Positions 2,145-23,375 of a stretch of DNA of 23,961 bases are shown here, piece by piece. The notes beneath the pieces are model-generated. The model saw nothing but the letters and a program-made list of their open reading frames with translations, had not been told where the DNA came from and made no database searches. This stretch comes from a virus. Location: positions 1 through 23,961 of IMG/VR virus record IMGVR_UViG_3300037168_000039; one strand, 5' to 3'. Position 1 is the stretch's first letter. Every line of letters begins with the position of its first letter. Position numbers and translations under genes: made by a program.

Positions 2145-2404
2145 GTGTCACCTGACGGAGGAACATCCGACTCGAACCGCGCGAAACTCATCTCCGGTTG
2201 CGTCGGCCGCTCGTTGATGTGCGTGTGGGCCTCGACGCGCACCAGGCGCTCGTCCATTGCCTCGAGACGTTGTTCGAGTCGCATGACGCAATTGCGCACG
2301 GCGTTCGTTGTCGACGCCACGAGCTTCAGCGTCAGATTGAGGTCCGCGATGGCGCTCGTCTGCGCGATGAGGGCCTCTGCCAATGTCGCTACGATATCAC
2401 TCAC
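2141..2404 (-). CDS. Hypothetical amphipathic coiled-coil protein, 87 aa
   Basis: The start is GTG at 2404, which lies inside the end of the upstream gene (8-base overlap) with GGAG a few bases before it. Longer in-frame starts fall in the real upstream gene and add Arg/Ser-rich shadow sequence. The product is helical and heptad-like over residues 5-60, first hydrophobic-neutral (LAEALIAQTSAIADLNLTL), then charged (MRLEQRLEAMDERLVRVEAH). The C-terminal tail is disordered and acidic. There is no clear transmembrane span. It stops in a GTGA overlap with the holin candidate. A role with that membrane protein, for example in lysis or as a small structural protein, is inferred from position only. 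No family was recognised. Confidence 0.6.
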   Translation of the reverse strand: MSDIVATLAEALIAQTSAIADLNLTLKLVASTTNAVRNCVMRLEQRLEAMDERLVRVEAHTHINERPTQPEMSFARFESDVPPSGDT

Positions 2405-4868
2405 TGCCTGCTCCGATCTGTCCCCCGAAGTCAGACGAATCCTTGCCGAGTGACTTGAGCTTCGTGGCCTTTGGCCCTGCCGTTTTCTTGGCAGGTCCAC
2501 CGGGCGGCTGCGGCGTTTGCGTTCCGTTCGCGTAGAGCGATTGGATTTGCTGGATCGGACCCGGTCCGCCCATGGGTGTCCCGAGGAATTTGCTCACGCT
2601 CGCACGCTCGCGCATCGGCAGTTTCGCGTCCGGATGCGCCGCGCTCCATTTCAGAATCTCGGTCCGCATCTGCCCGTAGATCGAAGGGTAGATCGTGCGG
2701 AGCGCGTCGACGTGCGCATCAGACAACGTGCCGGCCTGCATGTGTTCGATTGCCCGCATCGGGTTGGCCACGATCTCAGCTTTATCATGAAACGCTAGCT
2801 TGTCGGAAGGACTTGGCGTCCACGTGTTCGGTGCCATCGGTTGTGGAGGTGTCGGCGATCGCGGTACCGCTTGCGCGAGGTACTGGACGGCGTTCGTCTG
2901 CGCCTGATTGTAGGCGGCCGCCACGTCGGGCGCCGTCGTCGCGAGAGGGGCCGTCGTCTGCCCCACCGCTTGCGCGAGCGCTGCCGGCGACGAGGCGAGC
3001 GTGTTGAGGCGCCCCGCGAGCTTGTCGTACTGCTGTCCCTTGCTGAGCCCCGACGTCGAGTCGAGCAACGACGCCATGTGATCCGACGGCTTGGCCGCGA
3101 TCGTCCCCCGGATCGCCATGTCTTGCACGACGTCACCGACGCGAGCCATCGTGTCTTGCAAGCGTGCGCGCGACTCGGCGCCGAGCACCGCGGCGAACAG
3201 ATTCGGGTCGCCGGAGTTTGCCGCCCGCTTGAGCGCCATCGACACGGCGATCATCCCCTGGTCTCCGGCCCAGCGCTTGGCGACGTACGCGAGTGGCATT
3301 GCTGCGACCTTGCCAACGGCGTGACCCACGATGGCGCCAGGGAATCCGCCGAGCGCTCCGCCGACTCCCGATCCGATCGTGGACATGAGCCCGGAGATCG
3401 CAGCGTGCATGGGGCCACGTCCACCGTTGAGGAGCGATGACGTGATCGCGAACTGCTTCCCGGCGTCGACCGCGTCGAGCTTTTGCGCGAAGTCTTCGAG
3501 CGTCGCGAGCTTCGCGTACTGGGTTTTCGCTTGCGCGAGCGCGCCCGTGAGCTCCGGCTTTTGCGCGACGGCAGCCACATCGTCGGATGCCGACTCGATC
3601 GCGCGTTTCGCGAACATGTAGGCGCTGGCCCTGGCCTGATCGGCTACCGTGACGTCGGCCGGTTTGCCTTTCATCCCAGCTTCTACGCTGGACAGCCACT
3701 GTTTTCGCAGGCTCGACACGTAGTCTTGCGCGTCGCTGAATTTCACGACGTCGACTCCGCTTGCCGTGCGGGTGACGGGCACGATGCTCGGATCGCTGGC
3801 GTCCGCGATGACGTCTTCGATGGCTGTCCGCGTCGACGCGAGCGCGCGTTGTCGCAATTGCGGACTGTCGAGGCCCTGTCGGATCGCGTCACCCAGATCG
3901 CCCGGGTGAAGGAATTTCTCCGCCACGTGGATCGGGTTTCCGCCGACCGTTTCAACCGCATCATCCGCCGTCGAGTCGAGGTCGGACAGCACCGAGTTCA
4001 TGACATTGCCCGTATTTTTCAGGTGCGTCGTGATGGCGTCTCCGAGCTCCTGTCGAGTCATGCCGGGCTTCAGGAGCTCCAAGTCATGGATCGCGGCGCC
4101 CGCTTTTTCCACCCAACCGAGATCGGCGTTGCGCGGGATCGGCCCAACGGCTCCTGCCGCGGTTCGGTTCGCGAGCTGATCCAGGCTCGGAACGTCGAGC
4201 GACTTCGCCAGTTCGACCGCCTTGTCTCGTAGAGCTCCACCGGCTTCGCCGAAGAGGTGCACGCCACCTCCGATCACTGCCCCAGCACCTACGCCCCATA
4301 GTAGCGTCTCGGCGGCCTGTTTTGGATCGCCAAACGCGGCCTGCGTGAGCGCGACGGGACTTGAGTACAGCGCGCCCTCGGTTGCCGCCTTGGCGACAGC
4401 GGCCGCGGTGTTGGCGGCCCACCCTGCACGCGCCACCTCTTCGGCAGGCACGATGCTGCGCGCGATCGCCTCACCTGCTGCACCAATGGGAGCGAGGAGC
4501 CCCGGCAGGTGCATGCCGAGCGCCTCGACGCCTCCGCCCCACGCGAGCGTCGACGCGGCACCCGCCACTCCACCGATTCCGCGCGCGAGCGTGTGCTCCC
4601 CTTCGCGAGTCTCGCGGATCTCCTTTTCGTCGGGTGTCTCGTCGCCTTCTTCGATCGCCTCTGGAACGCCCAGCAACGCCTGATTCAGGAAGCTCTTGCC
4701 GCCCGCTTCAAGCGATCCGAGGAACCCCTTGTCCTGTTCCTGCTGGACGAGCGCTGCACGGAAGGCTTCGTCCGGCGTCTGCGCGGTGCCTGGCGCGACG
4801 TGATTCGGATCGGTGGGGTCGCTCGTGTCGAGCGGAATCTCCGGCGGGATGTCGGTCTCGTCGCTCAC
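2397..4868 (-). CDS. Large virion protein, DNA-ejection / internal-protein candidate
   Basis: This 823-residue protein has an acidic, Pro-rich N-terminus (1-45) and an Ala/Gly-rich body. Three glycine-zipper-like hydrophobic stretches stand out, at about 97-140, 185-212 and 487-530; the last has GSGVGGALGG followed by small and hydrophobic residues. Long helices lie between them and a Pro/Lys-rich tail follows at about 640-823. Internal or ejected proteins of short-tailed phages (the P22 gp7/gp20/gp16 or T7 gp14-gp16 classes) are similarly large, Ala-rich and membrane-active, and lie after the tail genes. That is the basis for this call; no direct homology was seen. No lytic transglycosylase motif was found. 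It starts with GTG in a GTGA overlap with the upstream gene and ends 8 bases inside the downstream gene. A tape-measure-like role is the main alternative. Confidence 0.65.
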   Translation of the reverse strand: MSDETDIPPEIPLDTSDPTDPNHVAPGTAQTPDEAFRAALVQQEQDKGFLGSLEAGGKSFLNQALLGVPEAIEEGDETPDEKEIRETREGEHTLARGIGGVAGAASTLAWGGGVEALGMHLPGLLAPIGAAGEAIARSIVPAEEVARAGWAANTAAAVAKAATEGALYSSPVALTQAAFGDPKQAAETLLWGVGAGAVIGGGVHLFGEAGGALRDKAVELAKSLDVPSLDQLANRTAAGAVGPIPRNADLGWVEKAGAAIHDLELLKPGMTRQELGDAITTHLKNTGNVMNSVLSDLDSTADDAVETVGGNPIHVAEKFLHPGDLGDAIRQGLDSPQLRQRALASTRTAIEDVIADASDPSIVPVTRTASGVDVVKFSDAQDYVSSLRKQWLSSVEAGMKGKPADVTVADQARASAYMFAKRAIESASDDVAAVAQKPELTGALAQAKTQYAKLATLEDFAQKLDAVDAGKQFAITSSLLNGGRGPMHAAISGLMSTIGSGVGGALGGFPGAIVGHAVGKVAAMPLAYVAKRWAGDQGMIAVSMALKRAANSGDPNLFAAVLGAESRARLQDTMARVGDVVQDMAIRGTIAAKPSDHMASLLDSTSGLSKGQQYDKLAGRLNTLASSPAALAQAVGQTTAPLATTAPDVAAAYNQAQTNAVQYLAQAVPRSPTPPQPMAPNTWTPSPSDKLAFHDKAEIVANPMRAIEHMQAGTLSDAHVDALRTIYPSIYGQMRTEILKWSAAHPDAKLPMRERASVSKFLGTPMGGPGPIQQIQSLYANGTQTPQPPGGPAKKTAGPKATKLKSLGKDSSDFGGQIGAGSE

Positions 4869-6493
4869 GGGGTCTCGGGTTCCTCGCCCGTATCACCGCC
4901 ACCACCACCGAGCCGCTGCACTTCAGCGAGACGGTTCGCAAGCGCCGCCTTTCGGTTCTTGACGTCCTGAAGGATCTGCGCAGCTTGCGCGGCGTTACCA
5001 CCGGTGATGCCGCTCGATGTGGGAGCGCCCTTGAATCCAGCCTGTTCGAGCTGTTGAGAGAGCGCCGCCATGCGACCGCGTGCATCGAATCCGTTGCCCT
5101 GTATTCCGCCTTTCGTGAGCTGCGCGAGCTCTGTAGCAGCGGCTTCTGCGGCATCGAGTTGCGATCCTTCGCGCATTAGGATCGCGGCTCCTCGTCCGAT
5201 GGTACCTTTTCCACCTGGCTGCGAGTATACCGGTGCACCACTGCGGCCTGTCCAGGATTCGATGACGTTTTTTCGCGCGTCCGCCATCGACCCGCCGAAT
5301 TTTTCGACGAATTTCTGCGACTGTTCCGCAAGATCTTTCGCCGTCATCTGGCTACCGGCGGAGGTGCCTCCCGTCATCTTTTCGGCGTTCTTTGCAAGCT
5401 GCCACTGCCGACTCTGGATGCTGTCGATCTTGTCTCCGAGTGATTCGTTCGTCTTGCCGATCATCGACTGCGCTTGCGTCTGGACGTCGGAGTTGTCCTT
5501 GTAGAGCGCTGCCTGTTTCATGATCTGATTCTGCGCGATCGTGTACGCGCTCAGCGTCGAGTCGCGCTCGGCCTTCAGTAGTGCGTTCTGATGCTCGAAC
5601 GAGTCGTTGTTCAAGTCCGACTCTTTGCCTGCGACCATGAGCGCGTGTTGCAGGTTCGTTTTCTGCGCGTCGATGTCACGCGTGATCGCGTCGTTTAGCA
5701 TCTCCGCTCCGACGTTGCGTCCACCGAGGTGCGGCGAAAGACCGGCCGCGAATCCGCCAAGTCCGACCGAGATCGCCGAGAGAATGTTCGACGCCGTACC
5801 TGCCTTTTGCCAGTAGTTATTCGGGTTGACGCCTTGCGCCTCGAGTTCTGCGAGCTTGTCGCGGATCTTGCTCTGCTGGTCTTTCGTCTCGGCCTGAAAC
5901 TGCTTGCTAAACTCGGCCTGCTTTTTCTGGTCCGCGTCGAAGGCCATCTTTCCGAGCTGCGAATCCTCGACGAGCGCATTCGTTTGGTCGTTGAAGTTGC
6001 GTGCGAGATCCCCCACGTTGCCCAGCATCGCCGTCCGATCGTCGGCCGCTTTCTGCGCGGATGCCGCGAGCTGGCTTCCGTACGCCTTGTCGGCAGGGCT
6101 CATCCCGACGGGACGAGGTGCCATGCCCGGCTGACCCTGTCCAAATAGCACCGAGTTTGGGGTGTCTTGTGAGGCCTGCTGCTTCTGCGCATTTGCAAGC
6201 ATCGCCTGCTGGCCCGCCGCGATCGATGGGTCGGCCTGCATTTGCGCAGGCGTTGCCGCCATCGGGTTGGACGGCGTAAACGCTTGCGTGGCTGCGTTTG
6301 CGGCCGGTTGCTGCGACGCGGCCGCAAGAGACGACCATAGCGACTGGCTGTCATCTTTTGGCGCTTCGACTTGACCGACTGGGCCGGGCATCGATGGGTC
6401 AGCGACCGACGTCAGTGCGGCCGCTTCCGCGGGTGTTTCCGCGTCGGCCTCGGTGATGTCCGGGGGGAGCTCGAGAAGGGGTGCGCCGCTCAT
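4865..6493 (-). CDS. Virion protein with helical coiled-coil body, ejection-protein candidate
   Basis: This 542-residue protein is Ala/Gln-rich and mostly helical. Residues 1-130 are low complexity (P, A and Q). A charged coiled coil spans about 165-230. A Gly-rich hydrophobic segment at about 235-255 (NILSAISVGLGGFAAGL) is directly followed by AITRDIDAQKTNLQHAL, a pairing I recall from uncharacterised proteins of many environmental phages. More helices lie at 270-370 and a Gly/Glu tail closes the protein. The ATG at 6493 overlaps the upstream stop as ATGA, and its own stop overlaps the next GTG. Lying between the S74-containing fibre-like protein and the 823-residue protein, it is probably part of an ejected or tail-interior complex. 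The function is inferred from position and composition only. Confidence 0.65.
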   Translation of the reverse strand: MSGAPLLELPPDITEADAETPAEAAALTSVADPSMPGPVGQVEAPKDDSQSLWSSLAAASQQPAANAATQAFTPSNPMAATPAQMQADPSIAAGQQAMLANAQKQQASQDTPNSVLFGQGQPGMAPRPVGMSPADKAYGSQLAASAQKAADDRTAMLGNVGDLARNFNDQTNALVEDSQLGKMAFDADQKKQAEFSKQFQAETKDQQSKIRDKLAELEAQGVNPNNYWQKAGTASNILSAISVGLGGFAAGLSPHLGGRNVGAEMLNDAITRDIDAQKTNLQHALMVAGKESDLNNDSFEHQNALLKAERDSTLSAYTIAQNQIMKQAALYKDNSDVQTQAQSMIGKTNESLGDKIDSIQSRQWQLAKNAEKMTGGTSAGSQMTAKDLAEQSQKFVEKFGGSMADARKNVIESWTGRSGAPVYSQPGGKGTIGRGAAILMREGSQLDAAEAAATELAQLTKGGIQGNGFDARGRMAALSQQLEQAGFKGAPTSSGITGGNAAQAAQILQDVKNRKAALANRLAEVQRLGGGGGDTGEEPETP

Positions 6494-9400
6494 GACCGCG
6501 CCGCTTTCAAGAAGCCTTCGAGCTTGTTGAGCCGCTCATTCAGCATCGCCTGACCCGCCAGCATCGTGCCCTGCAGCTTACCGTAATCGACGCGCTTGTA
6601 TCCGTCCGGTCCCGTGGTGACGGCAGACCTCCCAAGGTCCGTCGATTCGATCTCCTGGGCCATCGGCGAAACGAATGTCCCATGTCCAGCGCCCGGCATA
6701 TCGGGGTCCTTGTACCGGTAGGAGTGCGCGTGCACGCTGTCCAAGAATCCCTGCACGTCGCGCACGTCCGTCTTCGCGTCCTCGTCGCTGAGAATCTTCG
6801 ATCCGAGACTGGAAGCCAGACCGGTCGGCGTAAGCGATGCTTGGCCAGTGATGGCCCCAGCGATGCCCGACGGAGCAGGAGGTGTAGCCGTCGGGTTTCC
6901 GCCCGTGTAATGACCAGCGGTTCTCGGTCCCGTGTTGCCCTTCAACTGAGTCGCCGGAGTCGCCAGCGCAGCCGTTCCGTTCGTGTACGTCGGCAGATTC
7001 GACGTCAGCGGTGCCGGTATCGGCTGCGCAGTTGCGGTGTTCCCTGGCTGATACTGCTGCACCGGAGAGCTCAGTGCCGACGGCTGCACGTTGCTAATGC
7101 CGTTGAAAAAGTTGTTCAGGTTGGGGTTCGTTTGCTGAGGTTGACCCATTGCGTAGTATTGCGACGGCAGATTAGAACTCAGACCTGCTGGAACGTTGCT
7201 ACCGCTGAGAGGCGTCTGATTGAACGTGTCCCCTGCGAAGTTGCTAAGGTTCGGATTGTACGGAGCAGGTGGTGTCTGAACCCCAGTCGAGGTCATGCCA
7301 GCATTTTGCGACACACCTCCGGCAGAAATCATCCCTCCACCGGCGCCGACCATGCCGGCACTTACTCCTCCACCACCGGAGCCACCACCGTTGTAGCTCG
7401 CTGCCGTGTTGCTGCCCTGTTGCTGGTATCCTCCGCCCGTGGGAGCTCCACCACCGGACCATCCGCCACCGCCGGACGACGCGCCCGTGGACCCTCCGCC
7501 CGATGTCATTCCTCCGCCCTGCCATCCGCCGCCGTTCCACGAGCCGGCCGTGACACCCGCTGCACCCTGGTAGCCGGCGTCCGTGTAGCTCGCCTGATTG
7601 CCTTGGCCGTATTGCGCGTTGGGGTCCTGGAGCTGCTCCGCCATCGCGGGCACGTACGTGCTCTGCGCTGGCGTGCCGGTGTTCATGAAGCTGTTGTTCG
7701 AGCCGCTGATGCCGGAGCCAGACGTGTTGCCCGCCTCGAGAAAACTCTGGAGTTGCTGATTGCCGGAGATGACGTTTTCTTTTGCCGACTCGTCGGAAAG
7801 CGAGTCCGAGTTCTGAGTGTCGATGTCGTCGATTCCAGAGCCGGCATCCATGGTGGCGTACGGACTTGAGCCGCTGCCTGGCGTCTCGACTTCTTTCGTC
7901 GTCGGCGCCGAGCCACCAGAGCCGAAGAGACCGAAGGCATTCGCGAGCGCGGAAAGACCAGCGAGCACCCCGCTGACCGCTGGTCCGACAACGGGAATGA
8001 ATGCGGCGCCTGTCGTGGCTGCGGTTTCTGTCACGTTGCGCGCGGTGTAGTTTGCCGCCGATCCTCCGACGGATTCTTTCGTGTAGGTCGGGTTGGATGC
8101 GAAAGGCGTGGACGTCGAGACCTGCTGATCCATCTTCGACTGGTGGAGTTGCGTCAAAAACGATTGGAGCATCGGGTTGCCACCCTGGATGCCCTCCTTC
8201 ACGTTCTCGTCGCTCAGCGTCTGCGAAAGGAACGCCTGTTGTTGTGCTGGCGTCATTCCCGCCATTTGCTGCTGATAGAAGGCCTGTAGACCGGGCGGCA
8301 ACGACGAAAGGATCTGCGCGTCGGTTCCTTCCCCTCCGCCCGCATTGCCTCCGGTTCCGCCGGTGTCTGGCGGGACGTAGCTTCCGCCACCCTCTGTCCC
8401 ACTGGTATCACCAGGCGTTCCGGCGCTTCCGCCGGTATCCGTTGTTCCGCTGGTTTCTCCACCAGTTCCGCCGGTACCTTCACCCGGCGTGTAATTCGGA
8501 TTCAGTACCGCATTCGGGTCGTTTGCGGTTGTCGGTTGGCCCGTTACTTTGGAGATCCACTGCGCGGCCGCTCCGACTCCGCCCGCGACGCCGTTGTAGA
8601 TCGCGCCAGCGAAATTGGAGTTCGCCATCGCGCTCGTGTTGAACGCGTTCTCGTTGATGTTGTTCACCGCGTTGCGCTGATTGACCTGCAGCGTTTGATT
8701 CGCGAGCTCGGCGCTTTTGTTCGCCTCGCTGATGCCGGTCATCGCGCCTGCGAGACCCAGGTTGTAGTTCTGAGAGTTGGCAAGAGCCGTCAACGCGTTG
8801 GCAGAATTGTTCTGATTCGTAGACTGCAAAAGCGCCGCGTTGCCCGCGTTGGCTGCGTTTTGCGCCGCCATGTTCGCAGCGGTGAACTGATTCTGACTGG
8901 CCATGTTGAGGCCCGTCATCGTATTGTCTGCGCCAGCGTTGAATTGCCCGGCCGCGTTCAGGCTGTTCATATTGGCCAGGGTCATCCCCTGGTCATTGGT
9001 GGCGTCGTACTGATTCGCTGCGTTGATCGAGTTCGCGTTTTGGATGTTCGCGGCCTGCGCCATGGCGGCATCGTTCGCCGCTGCATTGGTAGTCGCCGTC
9101 GCGTTGTACTGATTGTTCTGCTGGATCTGTGACGCATCAAACGAGTTCGCCGCGTTGGTGGCGCTCGCGTTGAACTGGGAGTTTTGCTGCGCCTGCTCGG
9201 CATCGAACGAGTTCGCCGTGTTCGTCGCCGCCATGTTCGCCGCGGCCGCCGCGTTGCTCGATGAGGCGTTGTACTGATTCGCCGCGTTCGCGCTATTCAT
9301 ATTCGCGAGCGTCATGCCCTGCGCATTGGTGGCGTTGTACTCGTTATTCTGCTGCGCGAAGTTCTCGTTCGCCAGGAGCTGCGCATTCTGCGCGCTCGTG

Positions 9401-10536
9401 TTGTATTCGGTAAACTGATTGCCAGCCGCTTGATTCGCGGCCGCCGAAGCTTGCGACATGCTCGCGTTTTGCGAGGCCGCTGCTTGCTGCAGTTGCGCGG
9501 CGTTGAGATTGTACGCCTGACTCTGTCCTCGCGCGGCCGTGTCGAGCGTGCCGAGCTGCGACTGCGCGTTCAAAGTTTCTTGCGCACGCTGGATTCCCAT
9601 CGACTGATTGAGCTGCGCTTGCGCGTTCGCCGCGGAGTTCGCCGCGCTGTAGGCACTGAGACCTGCGCCGCCGATGTTGCCACGCTGCGAGCCGAGCGCC
9701 GCGAGTTGCGCAGCGATCTGACTCTGTTCTCCCTGTTGGAGTTGCAGGTCGGCCGGCGACACGCCACCACCAGCAGCCTGCGTTTGTAGCGTGTTGGCAA
9801 GCTGGAGTTGCGCATTCTGCCACTGCGCGTCACCGTTCGTGCTCAGCGCAGCGGCCTGCATTTGCGCGGGCGTCATCTGCGAATACCCGGCCGCTTGCGC
9901 CGCGTTGCCGCTGGCCGCCGTGGCGCTCGACGCCTGACCGTACGCCGCGCTCACCTGCGCCGCCGCCATCTGCGCAGCGGTGTAGCTAGCCCCCTGAGCA
10001 AGCGCTGCGTTGTAGGTCGCTGCAGCGGCCTGGCTGGCCTGGTAGCTCGACGCTGCGATCGTGTTCGCGCTGTAGTTCGAGGCTGAGCCAGTAGCTGGGT
10101 TGTAGTTGCTTGCAACTCCCTGCGCGCCCTGCCCCGTGGCCACTCCGTACTGCGCCGGAGCGTTCGCCACGTTCAGCGGCTGATTGCTCGCGCTCGCAGC
10201 GGCGAGGTTGTTCCAGACGGTATTTAGGCCGTAGTTCCCGTCAGTGTTCGTCGGCGTGCCGGTGATGGCCGTGTCGTTGATCGGATACGGCGACGAGACG
10301 AACTGTCCGGTACCGTTCCAGCTTGGCGAATTGACGTTGAGGCCTAGTCCGCTCGTCGAACCGGGGACCGAAGCGGCGCCGAGAGACGGCGTTGACGTGC
10401 TGCTCGTCGGGGTCGTCGTCGGAGCCGTCGGCGTCGGCGTTCCGTATGGCTGACCAGTGCTGGGGTTCGTGAGCGGAGTCCTATCCGATCCGTTCAGGTA
10501 GACGTTGCCGGTTTGGGGGTCGACGGTGTAGGGCAT
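6490..10536 (-). CDS. Giant repeat-rich virion protein with C-terminal S74-type chaperone domain
   Basis: This 1348-residue protein looks like a tail appendage or fibre-like component. Regions: a Thr/Pro-rich N-terminus (about 30-60); a decapeptide array with Tyr every ten residues (143-192); a Gln/Ala-rich helical part (about 205-340); 23 consecutive 11-residue repeats (341-593) with Asn/Asp at repeat position 6; a Gly/Thr linker (about 690-745); a hydrophobic stretch (about 844-874); a Gly-rich region (about 993-1077); and a C-terminal domain from LSDEDAK at 1249 to 1348, ending DGYKRVDYGKL plus a helix. This last part matches the Peptidase_S74 intramolecular chaperone family, which trimerises fibres and can cut itself before the SD serine (S1250, with K1255 as likely partner). 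Two isolated SDExxK copies lie at 775 and 914. The gene starts one base after the nozzle gene and ends in an ATGA overlap. Confidence 0.75.
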   Translation of the reverse strand: MPYTVDPQTGNVYLNGSDRTPLTNPSTGQPYGTPTPTAPTTTPTSSTSTPSLGAASVPGSTSGLGLNVNSPSWNGTGQFVSSPYPINDTAITGTPTNTDGNYGLNTVWNNLAAASASNQPLNVANAPAQYGVATGQGAQGVASNYNPATGSASNYSANTIAASSYQASQAAAATYNAALAQGASYTAAQMAAAQVSAAYGQASSATAASGNAAQAAGYSQMTPAQMQAAALSTNGDAQWQNAQLQLANTLQTQAAGGGVSPADLQLQQGEQSQIAAQLAALGSQRGNIGGAGLSAYSAANSAANAQAQLNQSMGIQRAQETLNAQSQLGTLDTAARGQSQAYNLNAAQLQQAAASQNASMSQASAAANQAAGNQFTEYNTSAQNAQLLANENFAQQNNEYNATNAQGMTLANMNSANAANQYNASSSNAAAAANMAATNTANSFDAEQAQQNSQFNASATNAANSFDASQIQQNNQYNATATTNAAANDAAMAQAANIQNANSINAANQYDATNDQGMTLANMNSLNAAGQFNAGADNTMTGLNMASQNQFTAANMAAQNAANAGNAALLQSTNQNNSANALTALANSQNYNLGLAGAMTGISEANKSAELANQTLQVNQRNAVNNINENAFNTSAMANSNFAGAIYNGVAGGVGAAAQWISKVTGQPTTANDPNAVLNPNYTPGEGTGGTGGETSGTTDTGGSAGTPGDTSGTEGGGSYVPPDTGGTGGNAGGGEGTDAQILSSLPPGLQAFYQQQMAGMTPAQQQAFLSQTLSDENVKEGIQGGNPMLQSFLTQLHQSKMDQQVSTSTPFASNPTYTKESVGGSAANYTARNVTETAATTGAAFIPVVGPAVSGVLAGLSALANAFGLFGSGGSAPTTKEVETPGSGSSPYATMDAGSGIDDIDTQNSDSLSDESAKENVISGNQQLQSFLEAGNTSGSGISGSNNSFMNTGTPAQSTYVPAMAEQLQDPNAQYGQGNQASYTDAGYQGAAGVTAGSWNGGGWQGGGMTSGGGSTGASSGGGGWSGGGAPTGGGYQQQGSNTAASYNGGGSGGGGVSAGMVGAGGGMISAGGVSQNAGMTSTGVQTPPAPYNPNLSNFAGDTFNQTPLSGSNVPAGLSSNLPSQYYAMGQPQQTNPNLNNFFNGISNVQPSALSSPVQQYQPGNTATAQPIPAPLTSNLPTYTNGTAALATPATQLKGNTGPRTAGHYTGGNPTATPPAPSGIAGAITGQASLTPTGLASSLGSKILSDEDAKTDVRDVQGFLDSVHAHSYRYKDPDMPGAGHGTFVSPMAQEIESTDLGRSAVTTGPDGYKRVDYGKLQGTMLAGQAMLNERLNKLEGFLKAARS
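8758..9516 (-). repeat. Coding hendecad array, 23 x 11 residues
   Basis: Residues 341-593 of the 1348-residue protein split into 23 blocks of exactly 11 residues with no gap. Repeat position 6 is Asn or Asp in repeats 2-22 without exception, and position 11 is Asn or Gln in 20 of 23. Position 5 is often Tyr or Phe. Repeats 7 and 17 (GMTLANMNSAN and GMTLANMNSLN) differ at one residue. Hendecads are the signature of right-handed or straight helical coiled coils. Confidence 0.8.
9961..10110 (-). repeat. Coding decapeptide array with Tyr every tenth residue
   Basis: Residues 143-192 of the same protein form five 10-residue units (for example SNYNPATGSA, SNYSANTIAA, SSYQASQAAA). Tyr is at position 3 of each unit (145, 155, 165, 175, 185), with Ala/Ser elsewhere. 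A sixth block keeps the composition but loses the register. The periodicity is distinct from the 11-residue array downstream. Confidence 0.7.
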
Positions 10537-13879: not shown

Positions 13880-14455
13880 TCAGGCCTGTACCTGGTCGAC
13901 GAGGTAGTTCGCGATCTGCACGCCGTTGCCGGCATTGCTCGTGCTGAACCCCACCCATAGGTCCCATGTCTGCTTCAGCGTCGAATCCCACCCAGTGCCA
14001 GCCGCTGGAGTCCCCGCGGGCACCATCAGCGTCGTATCGGTCACGGTCGGGTTGACCGCGGCTGCGATCTCGAGGTTCAACGCGGTGATTCGCCCACCGC
14101 CGATGAGTGTCGCCGCAGTGCCGGAGCCGATCGTTTTGACGGCGAGAAGGATGTCGAGTTCAAACGGAGTGAGCGTGTTGGCCGTGCTCGAGAGCTGCAG
14201 CGATCCAGAGCTCCACGCCGCGACGGTTCCGCCGAGTTCGACCTGGAACGTGATGGTGCCAGCCGGCGTGACGATGTTCGAGAGCGCGCCCCACGCTCGG
14301 AGGTGGAACATGCTGCCGACGCGCACGTAGTTCGCCGGCAGCGTGAACACGTCGGACGCGTTGATCACGGACTTCGCGGTCGTGTACGTGTTGAACAGCG
14401 TCGCTTGCGCCGTGGAGCTCGCGAGCGTTTGGTGCGCGAAGACGTTGCCGCTCAC
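13880..14455 (-). CDS. Jelly-roll-like virion surface protein
   Basis: The start is GTG at 14455 in a GTGA overlap with the adaptor gene, giving 191 residues. The longer frame only reads into the adaptor's Gly tail. Family-like features in order are an LPANYVRVGSMFHLRAWG strand pair, SNIVTPAGTITFQVELGG, LTPFELDILLAV, a TAATLIGGGRIT strand, and a late WDSTLKQTWDLWVGFS followed by NAGNGVQIANYLV. This strand order with the 'tFDst-qt-dlfa-wS-ana-nsi' ending is one I recall from widespread phage capsid-decoration or fibre-type jelly-roll proteins. There is no membrane segment or catalytic motif. Whether it decorates the head or sits at the neck cannot be decided here; its position after the adaptor favours neck or tail surface. 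Confidence 0.65.
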   Translation of the reverse strand: MSGNVFAHQTLASSTAQATLFNTYTTAKSVINASDVFTLPANYVRVGSMFHLRAWGALSNIVTPAGTITFQVELGGTVAAWSSGSLQLSSTANTLTPFELDILLAVKTIGSGTAATLIGGGRITALNLEIAAAVNPTVTDTTLMVPAGTPAAGTGWDSTLKQTWDLWVGFSTSNAGNGVQIANYLVDQVQA

Positions 14456-15210
14456 CAGCCTCCCCCGTCGCCGCCCATCCCGCCCCAACCTCCGAGCCCG
14501 TAGTTCGAGCGCACCGTCTTGACGTCGGCAATCTGGCCAGGCTCCGAGTCATCGCGCGGCGTGGCTTCGAGCAAGACGCGTTGCTTCACTTTCTGCGCTT
14601 GTCCCGAGCACACGCCGGCCGAGTCGAGGCTTTCCTCCTTCAAGAGCACCTTCATCGCGACGTCATAGACGACGTACTCGTCCCATCCGAGCAACGTGAG
14701 CCAGTACTGGTCGATCGTATCCGTGTCGAGGACGAGCGTCGGCATCGTCGGGATGTACATGAGCTGATACGTCCCTCCGGCCGCTGGAGGTGGAAGCACT
14801 TCGACGACGTTGCCGTAGAGGTTCCACGCGGTCGGGATCTGGCCGTAGAGCAGGCTTACGGTAGGTCCCACGTACAGGTTGCGCTCGATGAGGTTTCCGA
14901 GCCGTCGCAGCGGCGCCCATCGAGTCGTCGGAGCCCCGGTAAGCTGGCGCCAGAGCCCTCGAGCACGGAGGAAATTAGGCAGGTTCGTTCCCGGGCCCAC
15001 CGTAATCTGATTGAGCGGCGGGTCTCCTCCGGCAAGTGTGAAAAGGTACTGTCCGGCATTGTAGTCCTCGTTGACCGATACGACGGCCGCATAGAGTTCC
15101 TGCACGCTCGAATTGACGAGGTAGTTCAATTCGCTCGTCGTGAGCGTCGCAGCGTTGACGCGGTCCGCTCGCTGCAGGGCGCGGAGCCGCAGGTCAGCGA
15201 GCGCGGTCAC
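14452..15210 (-). CDS. Head-tail adaptor (connector) protein
   Basis: This 252-residue protein has the N-terminal layout of phage adaptor proteins: DLRLRALQRADRVNA, then LTTSELNYLVNSSVQELYAAVV (helices at 5-45). A mixed beta core follows with LVLDTDTIDQYWLTLLGWDEYVVYDVAMKVL split over about 158-190, where the 'D-Y-v--aa-k-l-ke' helix is typical. A charged C-terminal helix and a Gly/Trp tail (YGLGGWGGMGG) close it. Such proteins bind below the portal and join it to the nozzle, as T7 gp11 or P22 gp4 do. The start is GTG at 15210, one base after the previous stop, and its stop overlaps the next GTG. The adaptor class is fairly sure; the exact subfamily is not. Confidence 0.72.
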   Translation of the reverse strand: MTALADLRLRALQRADRVNAATLTTSELNYLVNSSVQELYAAVVSVNEDYNAGQYLFTLAGGDPPLNQITVGPGTNLPNFLRARGLWRQLTGAPTTRWAPLRRLGNLIERNLYVGPTVSLLYGQIPTAWNLYGNVVEVLPPPAAGGTYQLMYIPTMPTLVLDTDTIDQYWLTLLGWDEYVVYDVAMKVLLKEESLDSAGVCSGQAQKVKQRVLLEATPRDDSEPGQIADVKTVRSNYGLGGWGGMGGDGGGW

Positions 15211-18744: not shown

Positions 18745-20718
18745 TTATGCGGCTGCCTGTATGGGACCGGTTCCGGCCGGGGCTAGGGGGGCTTGCGGGG
18801 GTGGAGGTGGCGCTCCGACTACGGGTCCCTGAGGAGGTGGACCAGGAGGGCCGCCAGGAGGAGGAGCACCGGGAGGGCCGGCACTAGGAGGGGCAGGGGG
18901 GGGAGCATTCTTCGATGCCTGCATGGCGAGAGATTCTTGAAAGAATCGCAGTAGGAGCTCGGTGCGTTCGATCGGGATGTTCGGGTCGAGATCGGCGCGT
19001 AGCCACGCGTTCGCCGCCATCGCCACGCACTTGTCGACGTCTGCGATGCCGTTCGGTGAAACGTATTTCCCTTGATCGCGGATGCGCGAGAGGCAAAGCA
19101 TGATGTTGTCTCGAGACGCCGTCATCTCGTCGATCCACGCATTCAGGTTCGGGATCTTGATCTGCGAAAGCGCCACGTCGATCGGCATGAATCCGGACTG
19201 AATCAGCTCCTGGATCGTATTGAGCTGACCCTCTGGAGTGCGCGGAAGCAGCGACGTCGGAAACGCCTGGAGCGAGTACTGATCCTCGTCAAGCGACGCG
19301 TCTTTCCAGTTCACCGTTTCGATGAACGAACGACCCGGCACCTTGACCGAGAGCTTCTTGTTCTTCTTGTAGAGGTCCGCGCTCATGTCGAGGATGATCT
19401 TGGCTTCTTCGATATGGAATCGCTCCCAACGCTGACCGATGATCGCGAAGCGCTGCGTTTCGACGTCCTGATACGTGCGCATCGCCACGCCGGAGTTGAG
19501 CCCCGCTGGCTTGTCGCTCTGACTCGAGAGCTGCGAAAGACCGAGCTGCTTGTAGCACCAATCGATCATCCACTGCAGGAACTGGTAGACGTCGCCGGAT
19601 GCAGCGGGAGGCGTCTCGAACACCGGCTTCGTTCCGGTGTACTGATTGACGCTGATGCCGTTCTGGATCTGATGCTGCGAGACCTGCGAAAGCTTTTCGA
19701 TCCAAACGCGGGGAACCGCGAACAGATAGATCGACTGCATCACCGAGCGGAGCACCTCATTGATCGCCCGCTGCATGCCCTCGATTTCTTGCGCGATGCC
19801 GAAGCCGAAGGGACCATAGGTCGGCGGAGAATACTGCCACCGCACAATCGGAAGGTACGGCTTCGTCCACTCCTCACTCAGCAGCGTGCACCCTTCGATC
19901 GCGACGACGTGACGGCCGACGTCCGCGTCTCCGCCCTTGTCCGTGAGCGTCCGTCGCCACGAGTGCGTGACGAGCACCATGTCAGCGGACGACATGAACG
20001 CCATCTCGCCCTTCCACGAGTTTTTGGCCTCGCGAATCTTCTCCTCCTGATCGGGATACTCGGCAAGAAGCTCGGCAAGCGGCGTAGGGTGTTGCCAATG
20101 AATCTCGTATGGATCGTTGTACATACCCACGATCTCGTCGATGACGACCTCGTCGATCTTCAGATACTCCGCGGCGATCTGTCCGCGCGATTCCTTGAAC
20201 AACACGGCGCCATCGCCGTAGATGCCGCCGTCTCGGAACACTTCGTCGTTTGCCGCATAGACTCCGCCGCCGTCAAAGCTGCCGTCGAGAAACTTCGTGA
20301 GCTTGTCGGACTTCAGAATGAGACGCGAGTCGGCGGAGCTCGGGAGGATGAAAACGCGAACCTTGTCCTTTGCAATGCGAGCTTGGCTTGTGTCGACGCA
20401 CGACTTGATCACGTTGCAGTTGAGCCGATGATACGGCGCAATCGTGGAGCTCGAACCGCTACGGAAGAGTGAACCCGCCCAGAACGAACCGGTATTGCAA
20501 TAGAGGTTCTGGTACACCGCGAGTTCGTACCTGCGACGGACCTGCTTATTTTTCAGAGCTCGGCAAAGCGCCGTCGTGTACTCCCACTGCCGATCGTCTG
20601 GCTGGATGTACCACTCGATCTGTTGCTGCAGATCGGTAACGCGGCCGCCGGCCTTACCGCCGCTGACCCGCGTCTTGTACTTCTTCTTGGTGACGGTTGA
20701 GCGGCCTACGTCGGTCAT
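18745..20718 (-). CDS. Portal protein
   Basis: This 657-residue protein is the dodecameric head vertex through which DNA passes. Its core has the usual portal layout: a helical and beta N-terminal wing (30-130), a DGAVLF stretch at about 170, a YLPIVRWQYSPPTYGPFG segment leading to an IAQEIEGMQRAINEVLRSV helix (about 290-325), a PAGLNSGVAMRTYQD stretch where Q and D/E residues are typical (about 405-420), and long C-terminal helices to about 600. The length is near that of P22- and T7-type portals. From residue 606 a Pro/Gly/Ala-rich tail of about 50 residues follows, encoded by C-rich DNA with an 8-base C run. The ATG overlaps the previous stop as ATGA. Confidence 0.88.
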   Translation of the reverse strand: MTDVGRSTVTKKKYKTRVSGGKAGGRVTDLQQQIEWYIQPDDRQWEYTTALCRALKNKQVRRRYELAVYQNLYCNTGSFWAGSLFRSGSSSTIAPYHRLNCNVIKSCVDTSQARIAKDKVRVFILPSSADSRLILKSDKLTKFLDGSFDGGGVYAANDEVFRDGGIYGDGAVLFKESRGQIAAEYLKIDEVVIDEIVGMYNDPYEIHWQHPTPLAELLAEYPDQEEKIREAKNSWKGEMAFMSSADMVLVTHSWRRTLTDKGGDADVGRHVVAIEGCTLLSEEWTKPYLPIVRWQYSPPTYGPFGFGIAQEIEGMQRAINEVLRSVMQSIYLFAVPRVWIEKLSQVSQHQIQNGISVNQYTGTKPVFETPPAASGDVYQFLQWMIDWCYKQLGLSQLSSQSDKPAGLNSGVAMRTYQDVETQRFAIIGQRWERFHIEEAKIILDMSADLYKKNKKLSVKVPGRSFIETVNWKDASLDEDQYSLQAFPTSLLPRTPEGQLNTIQELIQSGFMPIDVALSQIKIPNLNAWIDEMTASRDNIMLCLSRIRDQGKYVSPNGIADVDKCVAMAANAWLRADLDPNIPIERTELLLRFFQESLAMQASKNAPPPAPPSAGPPGAPPPGGPPGPPPQGPVVGAPPPPPQAPLAPAGTGPIQAAA

Positions 20719-21142: not shown

Positions 21143-21461
21143 TGGGCACCTGCACGAACGGCTTGCAATCGTCGCAGACACGGAGGTACCAGCCGCTGAA
21201 AAACTTGCCGGTCCGCTCCGCGTGGCCCTGCGCGTCGACCTTGGTGACCTCGACACGCACGCTACGGGGATCGGACCCACGAGCGCGAATCATCGTGCGC
21301 GAGCGCTTGTATTGCCGGCATCGGTCGCAACGAAAGTGCGTCACCGGCTCGCGTGCCGTGCGCTTCGACAGGTCGCCCTCGACCACTCTCTCGAGTTGCT
21401 TGTCGAGCCGCTTTTCCCCTTCGTACTGCGACAGTTGGCGGTACAGAAACGGGCGTCGCAT
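21132..21461 (-). CDS. Zinc-ribbon-type small protein
   Basis: The 109-residue product has two Cys pairs, C45-x2-C48 (FRCDRCR) and C96-x2-C99 (RVCDDCK), about 48 residues apart, with basic and aromatic residues around them. This spacing suits one zinc site in a treble-clef or zinc-ribbon fold. Residues 1-40 are charged and helical (YEGEKRLDKQLERVVEGDL). It lies between terminase and portal genes, so a DNA-packaging or nucleic-acid-binding role is plausible, but the family was not recognised. The ATG at 21461 overlaps the previous stop as TGATG. Confidence 0.6.
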   Translation of the reverse strand: MRRPFLYRQLSQYEGEKRLDKQLERVVEGDLSKRTAREPVTHFRCDRCRQYKRSRTMIRARGSDPRSVRVEVTKVDAQGHAERTGKFFSGWYLRVCDDCKPFVQVPIDA

Positions 21462-21955
21462 CAGAAGACGCCTTTCATGCGGACCTTTGCGCGGGGAATG
21501 ATCGTTCCGCTCGTCGCGGTGTATAGGATACGCATCCAGGCGTAGTTACAGCGATCGTCGTCGATCACGATCGTCGTCGCATTCGCGACCGGTGGAGGCG
21601 TCAGCGTAGCCACCGCGCCTGGGTAGTAGTGCGTGGACCAGTTCCCCGCGACGATGGGATACAACGGAAGCTGATTCCAGAACGCGGTCGGCAGGTCGAA
21701 CGAGTTCGGCGTCAGCGTCGAGTTCAAAACCTCGTCATTCGACACCTGCACTTGCAGCGTGCCGGACGGAGCACCCGTAGCGGGACACGAGAACACGAGT
21801 CGCCAGAAGTCGACTTGTTCCACCGGGATCGGGACGCTAAAGAACGTCGTCCCGATTGCGGCTTCGAAGCCGTCCATGATGGTCTGCGGACTTGTTGCGT
21901 CAGTCCAACCGTCGAGTGACGCTCGTAGCGTTTGATGTGCGACGCGGCGACTCAT
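21461..21955 (-). CDS. Beta-sandwich-like virion protein
   Basis: Up to 164 residues if the ATG at 21955 is used. That start has GGGAG about ten bases upstream but overlaps the terminase gene by 56 bases. An ATG at 21877 (M27) would avoid the overlap but has no clear ribosome-binding site, so the start is uncertain. The core has a FWRLVFSCPATGAPSGTLQVQVSND stretch split by loops at about 50-74, Trp- and Tyr-rich strands, and an ending with YAWMRILYTATSGT and VRMKG. The 'GT--v--Snd' and 'W-R--Y--tSGT' blocks recur in small carbohydrate-binding-like beta-sandwich proteins of tailed phages. It is probably a virion surface component, although it is encoded next to TerL. No enzyme motif was seen. 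Confidence 0.6.
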   Translation of the reverse strand: MSRRVAHQTLRASLDGWTDATSPQTIMDGFEAAIGTTFFSVPIPVEQVDFWRLVFSCPATGAPSGTLQVQVSNDEVLNSTLTPNSFDLPTAFWNQLPLYPIVAGNWSTHYYPGAVATLTPPPVANATTIVIDDDRCNYAWMRILYTATSGTIIPRAKVRMKGVF

Positions 21956-23375
21956 CGATTGGGCGCTCCCATGGGTCTGGCTTGACCTGGGATTTAGCGT
22001 ACTCGCTGTCGAGACGCAATCGAGACTTTTCTTCGTCGCTGATTCGTGGTGCGCCCATGACCGGGTCGGCCGTGCACTTGCTCAGCGCGAGCGCGATGCT
22101 TGGCGCGTAGTCCGCGTGTCGCCCGTCGGAGGTTTCAGGCAGGTCGATCGTGAATCCGTTCGGCGTGATCTTCTGCCGAATGCTGAGCAAGTCCGCACGG
22201 ATGACGTCGCTCTTCGGCAGTTCCACTTCACCATTCGCCAGTAGCGTCGCCATCGCCTCGTACCTACCCAGACGATCGCCAGCACCGCGTTCACCGACAG
22301 ACAGCAGAAGCCCCTTGCGAACCGCGATAGACTTGAGCGCATGGGCCTCGTACTGGTCGGTGTACACGCCAACGGCCTGGTACCGTTGGCATATTTCGGT
22401 GATCTCACCCATCACGGCTTCGGGGTCGTTCGGTGCTCGCGAGCTCCCTTTCCACTCACGCGCCACCACGATGGCATTCTTGAGCTTTCCGCAAGCCCAC
22501 CTGCGTGTGGCGAGCACGAACGTCCACGGGTTGCGCGAGTAGCCCGGATCCATCGCGCCCACGTAGTAGTGCCCGCGCTCGTACGGGAGCTCGCCATCGC
22601 GCTCCGCGGCATCGAGCCACGCGCTCGCGAGCATCGAAAGCGCGTCGCCCTCGGTCGGAATCGCCGCGTACTCGCGCGACCAGTACGACTCATTGGGCTC
22701 CAGCGAGTGCGTCCACTCTTCTGTCAGCTCCGGGTGCGCAACCCACGTCGGAGCGACATACACGCGCTGCGATGCCGTGTTGCCGCGGTCTACGGCCTTC
22801 GCGTGTGCGTCGAGGCTCCCAAGCGGGCTCGACGACAGGAACATGCGCGCCCGAGGAATTGTAGCCATCGTCGGCCGCACGCTCGCGAGCACTTCGGTCG
22901 CTGGGTTCGCGCCGGTGTCCGCATCGCGCCACTTCGATACCTCATCGCAGATCACGCAGATACACGTGGCTCCGCTCACGCCCGCAATCGTCGCGGTGAA
23001 CACGCGAAACTCGACGCGCAAGTCCTTGCACGCGATCTTGTCTGCGGTCGATTTGTGTTCGACCTCGCACGCGTTGAGGATGGCACCGAGCGTGACCAGG
23101 AGCTCGGCGGCGCGCTTGCGATCCTGGGCGATGAGCGCGACCACCGGCGTATCGCCAGGCGCGACGTAGTGCTCGCCGTAGAGCGCCTCGGCAACGGCAA
23201 CGCGGCAGAGTGACGAAGACTTGCCACCACGCCGGCCAACCCGCCACGCCGACTCGCGGATCGTTGTATCGTAGAAGTCGCCGAGCTTCTCACGCCACCA
23301 TGACGACATGGCCGGCATCGAAGCCCGCTCGCATGCGGCGTTGACGAGGTCGATGCCGTCGATGACGGATGTCAC
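21900..23375 (-). CDS. Terminase large subunit (TerL)
   Basis: This 491-residue protein is the ATP-driven DNA-packaging motor with its nuclease. ATPase motifs: Walker A G47-RRGGK52-S53, Walker B ICVIC ending in D144-E145, and the coupling-type motif LSSSPLG at 180-186. Nuclease (RNase H-like) motifs: D276 in GAMDPGY, D340 in VYTDQY, and D422 in HADYA, giving a plausible acidic metal-binding triad. Both domains and the linker are intact and the length is normal. The GTG at 23375 overlaps the upstream stop as GTGA. No recognisable small-terminase gene lies beside it. The C-terminus (from about 450) is charged and may contact the portal. Confidence 0.9.
   Translation of the reverse strand: MTSVIDGIDLVNAACERASMPAMSSWWREKLGDFYDTTIRESAWRVGRRGGKSSSLCRVAVAEALYGEHYVAPGDTPVVALIAQDRKRAAELLVTLGAILNACEVEHKSTADKIACKDLRVEFRVFTATIAGVSGATCICVICDEVSKWRDADTGANPATEVLASVRPTMATIPRARMFLSSSPLGSLDAHAKAVDRGNTASQRVYVAPTWVAHPELTEEWTHSLEPNESYWSREYAAIPTEGDALSMLASAWLDAAERDGELPYERGHYYVGAMDPGYSRNPWTFVLATRRWACGKLKNAIVVAREWKGSSRAPNDPEAVMGEITEICQRYQAVGVYTDQYEAHALKSIAVRKGLLLSVGERGAGDRLGRYEAMATLLANGEVELPKSDVIRADLLSIRQKITPNGFTIDLPETSDGRHADYAPSIALALSKCTADPVMGAPRISDEEKSRLRLDSEYAKSQVKPDPWERPIDESPRRTSNATSVTRRLD

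Follow-up and report, generated by a model that had tools for sequence, protein, structure and literature searches.

First-slot ejection proteins of short-tailed phages, such as T7 gp14 and P22 gp7, are encoded directly downstream of nozzle-type genes. In the T7- and P22-type phages compared in a 2022 review (PMC8954989), they are small and of constant size, about 181–240 aa, and those of the T7 type have four or five membrane-spanning segments. In the window analyzed here, a whole stretch of 23,961 nt from the IMG/VR record IMGVR_UViG_3300037168_000039, the same slot is occupied by a gene whose product, by contrast, reaches 1348 aa and adds an array of 11-residue repeats. One conserved hydrophobic segment, a possible membrane-spanning one, is seen in it (Kyte-Doolittle mean of 1.5–1.8 over 19 residues). 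Like tail fibres that carry the Peptidase_S74 (endosialidase chaperone) domain, this protein ends in an S-D-E-x-x-K motif followed by an S74-like domain; unlike them, it scores below the family cut-off, is encoded in a non-fibre slot and contains two extra S-D-E-x-x-K motifs upstream. The ejection slot and the S74-like end are of known kinds, and what seems to be new is the array. Its architecture appears to be undescribed in the libraries that we searched: against Pfam, PHROGs and NCBIfam the 1348-aa protein retrieved nothing beyond the sub-threshold S74 match, its profiles found no match in the PDB, either with the full protein at E-values up to 1 or with only the array at values up to 10, and the retrieved literature, all of it open-access, holds no description of such an array.

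The window comes from a short-tailed phage whose portal and head-tail adaptor are SU10-like (Table 1). Gene order is kept in the relatives (capsid, small genes, PF24175 adaptor, nozzle candidate, array protein), with orthologs of the 542-aa and 823-aa proteins coming next where the contig extends; two contigs end inside the array gene. In a second lineage of array-bearing phages, described below, the order is nozzle (phrog_3287, E = 1e-84, the same family as that of the nozzle candidate orthologs), small gene, array protein, and proteins of 513 and 671 aa, the latter with an SLT transglycosylase domain (E = 5.6e-16), which is typical of ejection proteins. The array gene is the first ejection gene after the nozzle gene in both lineages, and the matching gene order in P22 is 10-26-14-7-20-16.

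Table 1. Features of the window, with coordinates on its 23,961 nt; residue numbers are those of the 1348-aa array protein.
Feature	Coordinates	Strand	Basis or remark
823-aa protein, third gene of the presumed ejection cluster	2397..4868	-	Synteny, orthologs; no family match
542-aa protein, second gene of the presumed ejection cluster	4865..6493	-	Synteny; no family match
Array-protein gene (1348 aa), first gene of the presumed ejection cluster	6490..10536	-	Synteny, full-length homologs
Peptidase_S74-like C-terminal domain with third S-D-E-x-x-K motif, residues 1250–1348	6493..6789	-	
Second S-D-E-x-x-K motif, residues 914–919	7780..7797	-	
Hydrophobic Gly-rich segment FIPVVGPAVSGVLAGLSAL, residues 846–864	7945..8001	-	
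First S-D-E-x-x-K motif, residues 775–780	8197..8214	-	
Conserved post-array helix, residues 594–645	8602..8757	-	Homolog alignment; pLDDT 76–86 over most of it
11-residue repeat array, 23 units, residues 341–593	8758..9516	-	Well-formed part, units 2–21
Conserved pre-array helical domain with anchor ARGQSQ, residues 235–340	9517..9834	-	
Tail nozzle candidate (tubular B / P22 gp10-type), 1013 aa	10538..13579	-	Orthologs L008 and L013 match phrog_3287 weakly
Head-tail adaptor (SU10_adaptor)	14452..15210	-	PF24175, 29.5 bits (cut-off 27)
Portal protein (SU10_portal)	18745..20718	-	PF23899, 31.5 bits (cut-off 30)
Terminase large subunit	21900..23375	-	phrog_2, E = 8.7e-17

The S74-ended gp17 of phage H6/1, annotated as "putative ejection protein", and gp17 of phiGT1 are encoded in this same slot and are versions of the first-slot ejection protein, and two PHROG families are hit by the short S74-ended relatives, phrog_6121 ("virion structural protein") and phrog_4287 ("DNA ejection protein"). 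Likewise, gp27 of phiM5 occupies the slot, contains the same GGSR helical domain and, according to its record, was detected in the proteome of the phage particle, although it was nonetheless named "putative tailspike". Assignment of the array gene to the first ejection-protein slot, the position of P22 gp7 and T7 gp14, is well supported, and by analogy with phiM5 gp27 its product is very probably present in the virion, as the earlier note had proposed. With the short S74-ended relatives as query, similarity to P22 gp7 was not detected (hhalign probability 0.3); hhalign comparisons with P22 gp16 and H6/1 gp19 were likewise not significant. A comparison with H6/1 gp17 is circular, the query alignment already containing that sequence, and carries no weight here.

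The array divides exactly into 23 units of 11 residues, with no insertion. Position 6 is Asn or Asp in 21 consecutive units, from 2 to 22 (17 Asn and four Asp among the 23), position 11 is Asn or Gln in 20 units and position 5 is Tyr or Phe in nine. The Asn/Asp run of 21 compares with a maximum of eight at period 11 among thousands of shuffles of the region, in which it never exceeded 10 at any period. The unit count and the tallies for positions 6 and 11 coincide with those of the earlier note, whose observation is confirmed with some corrections. Units 1, 22 and 23 fit badly (leave-one-out scores of 0.6, −1.0 and −6.1), leaving a well-formed array of approximately units 2–21, and the stronger unit is longer: self-similarity peaks at a lag of 22 residues (z = 7.6), with a z of only 2.7 at lag 11, so that the main unit is a 22-mer in which two 11-residue types alternate, [AQ]AxQ(Y/F)NAxxx[QN] and [AQ](A/M)xLANxxxxN. 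The first type carries the Tyr/Phe at position 5 and the second reads roughly AMTLANMNSLN.

Searches of viral contigs retrieved a near-identical relative (L002), diverged full-length homologs (L003/L007, L008 and L009) and a truncated one (L089), with the three full-length diverged homologs showing 43–49% overall identity to the 1348-aa protein; no relatives were found in the bacterial and archaeal genomes or in the plasmids searched. The register of the array is set by the ARGQSQ anchor of the pre-array domain, after which it starts in the same phase in all four diverged homologs, and these also conserve the 11-residue spacing and the Asn at position 6, so that the array withstands the refuting check on homologs named in the earlier note. 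Unit numbers vary, from about 22–23 in the window to 24, 13, 20 and at least 11 in the diverged homologs. Over the 85 units of the five window-family arrays, position 6 is Asn in 77, Asp in five, Thr in two and Gly in one, and position 11 is Asn in 38 and Gln in 33; their approximately 990 residues do not include a single Lys, Arg, His, Cys, Pro or Trp. In the part of the array covered by L002 (residues 341–499), this sequence and the window differ by 18 synonymous and one nonsynonymous codon changes, a strong sign that the protein is constrained; the array is under purifying selection.

Using the array alone as query, we found about 20 more phage proteins (L096–L116) with ends unlike those of the window family; together with the homologs, they rule out that the array is a one-off feature. 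Their arrays comprise 21–66 in-register units, counted by accepting Asn, Gly, Ser, Asp or Thr at position 6 and tolerating single misses, and the period-11 run of L104 reaches 65 (Asn, Gly, Ser, Thr, Asp or Ala allowed), where shuffled sequences give at most 25. In many of these arrays position 6 cycles N-N-N-G, defining a 44-residue super-unit that Tandem Repeats Finder recovers as 132 bp. Array length changes by whole units: L098 and L104 have 62 and 66 units, respectively, despite 99.4% identity over 660 bp of downstream DNA, from which it follows that whole modules, here of 44 residues, are gained or lost quickly. The annotated relative MW202879 (327 aa) shares the domain before the array position and lacks a long array, which indicates that the array is an expansion within a smaller protein. 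An hhalign comparison between the domains that precede the array in each of the two lineages was not significant. The array could also be pictured as an intrinsically disordered, prion-like spacer: Asn plus Gln make up about a third of its residues, AlphaFold2 confidence is low (see below) and phage proteins for the tail, attachment and penetration have been catalogued with prion-like domains rich in Asn/Gln (PMC5694896). Nevertheless, the strict 11-residue register through up to 66 units, the shifts in length by whole units only and the purifying selection on its residues make this improbable.

Hydrophobicity over the 85 units has an amplitude of 0.214 at 2.75 residues versus 0.055 at 3.67, and the power at 3.67 residues in the five arrays (0.6–2.6) compares with null maxima of 7–8. 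The 2.75-residue period is dominant in all five window-family arrays and in nearly all the second-lineage arrays scored, mostly with a secondary peak at 5.5 residues and with little or nothing at 3.6–3.67; on an alpha-helix, this period means several apolar stripes around it and no single sticky face. In the best hendecad register, derived from the weak 3.67 component, positions 1, 4, 5 and 8 form the core and hence Asn-6 is left at an outward, "f", position. These values set the array apart from a conventional hendecad coiled coil and do not support the core with buried Asn-6 envisaged in the earlier note; a trimer with stacked Asn in its core is improbable. The array resembles the hendecad/undecad coiled coils exemplified by meningococcal NadA3 (PMC6191539) in having an 11-residue repeat that is probably helical; it differs from them in the absence of a 3.67 stripe, the fixed Asn at positions 6 and 11 and the lack of basic residues.

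Two single-chain AlphaFold2 runs, one with the array plus its flanks (pLDDT 40–66 in the array and up to 86 in the flanking helices, with predicted helices of up to 84 in the pre-array domain) and another with an 88-residue in-register segment (mean pLDDT of 60), modeled helix and no strand, with array values of about 40–69. An alpha-helical array is favoured by these models, not established, because their confidence within the array is low. Type I antifreeze and LEA proteins likewise have Ala-rich units of 11 residues, in their case helical; no homology to the array was found and their function is unrelated. A Foldseek search of the array model against viral models gave no match, to which we give little weight since the model is of low confidence. 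The hydrophobic periodicity might instead reflect a beta-solenoid of 22-residue coils with Asn ladders at the turns, in agreement with the alternation of apolar and polar residues (p-h-p-h-h-p-h-p-p-h-p), the invariant Asn and the spectral peaks at 5.5 and 2.75 residues, as expected of a four-sided coil of this length. However, Ala, Gln, Leu and Met account for approximately half of the residues in the window-family arrays, beta-branched residues are scarce, and both models contain helix and neither contains strand; we consider a beta-solenoid as improbable as the disordered spacer.

The Peptidase_S74 match of the 1348-aa protein reaches 17.6 bits, short of the 22 set as cut-off in Pfam, while relatives L013 and L017 score 26.3 and 39.2 bits; an hhalign value of 98.9% ties its S74-like end to that of the short S74-ended relatives. 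This C-terminal domain and the S-x4-K motif would suit a trimeric, S74-chaperoned tail fibre or spike in which the array serves as a hendecad-rod shaft, related to the one proposed in the earlier note. Additionally, some slot relatives are annotated as tailspike or tail fibre, no other large fibre candidate was recognized downstream of the ejection genes in L007, L008 and L088, and we identified no separate spike gene in the contigs of the window family, which are incomplete. Yet the gene sits between the nozzle and the ejection genes and not in a fibre or spike locus; H6/1 encodes a separate spike besides its slot protein, as phiGT1 does separate fibre and spike genes; no S74 domain was seen in the array lineage L096–L116, with L099 matching no Pfam family; and the 3.67-residue hydrophobic stripe is absent. 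A fibre shaft is thus unlikely and, like the beta-solenoid and the disordered spacer, ranks below a helical array in an ejection-slot protein.

The array is a real, selected 11-residue repeat, locked in register and variable in length, within the protein of the first ejection slot. On balance, we believe that it is helical and that this virion protein is ejected, the array refolding as a trans-envelope element, and we hold this reading to be somewhat better than an even chance. Since the repeat recurs in many phages and the protein is in the DNA-ejection slot, the array probably belongs, as a part of variable length, to the injection machinery and not to a tail fibre. The protein would be packaged together with the neighbouring ejection proteins and expelled through the portal and nozzle, after which the array could refold across the host envelope as an extended helical element, be it a bundle, a tether or the wall of a tube. 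Its neutral Asn/Gln/Ala surfaces, with no prolines or cysteines, would not hold the passing DNA, and the number of units would set its reach. At 1.5 Å per residue, 66 units in one straight helix would measure about 1090 Å, so the array would have to double back, form a bundle or become extended only once outside the head. Besides the low model confidence within the array, the lack of detected homology to P22 gp7 and gp16, the name given to phiM5 gp27 and the absence of an identified spike gene in the window family, other points weigh against this ejection reading: the dominant 2.75-residue period is not what an amphipathic helix needs, S74-type ends are chiefly familiar from tail fibres and spikes, and the size of described first-slot proteins (PMC8954989) is far below 1348 aa.

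In the phages examined here, the slot holds proteins of up to about 1360 aa and, in the second lineage, much of the extra length is one strict repeat. Relatives with no long array (327 aa), with 21 units and with 66 units make the control of channel length by unit number testable, which bears on what sets the length of the trans-envelope channel of a short-tailed phage. If the array is helical with no coiled-coil core, its helical packing would lie outside the usual coiled-coil rules. A bolder proposal, possible but rather doubtful, is that these arrays represent a class of helical repeat not described before, with an Asn ladder, no basic residues and no coiled-coil core. Having arisen or spread in at least two lineages of phage proteins, it would form an envelope-spanning tether or conduit, its reach set by the number of 11-, 22- or 44-residue modules that phages gain and lose by recombination.

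Other repeats were seen in these proteins. A second type, of about 20–21 residues, lies upstream of the array in L104 (1045–1344) and L089 (9149–9990), with the sequences GYxAxxFGGAQAAPAxLAQAT or TAAQYQAAQAAAQGYSAAQG. The short S74-ended relatives L027 (8345–10216), L017 (5568–6950) and L038 (8582–10222) contain different Asn/Gln-rich arrays, with a 9/18-residue spacing and a hydrophobic period of about 4.5, apparently a parallel expansion in proteins of this kind. The three S-D-(E/D)-x-x-K motifs of the array protein, the third at 6772–6789, are kept in order in L007, L008 and L009, which also share the Gly-rich segment between the first two; a full S74-like domain follows only the last motif, and the three could be repeated self-cleavage sites.

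Elsewhere in the window, the nozzle candidate is about 85% identical (residues 126–1013) to its L002 counterpart (6953–9996), versus 97–100% for the neighbouring proteins, which suggests a hypervariable or recombined region, possibly in contact with the host. A 164-aa protein (21461–21955) adjoining the terminase matches a gene located downstream of the ejection genes in L013, whose product has a weak match to Hoc-like head decoration. Finally, positions 839–1687 encode an Rv2525c-like glycoside-hydrolase domain (PF08924, 61 bits), a probable endolysin, that is found near the ejection genes in three relatives, on varying strands.
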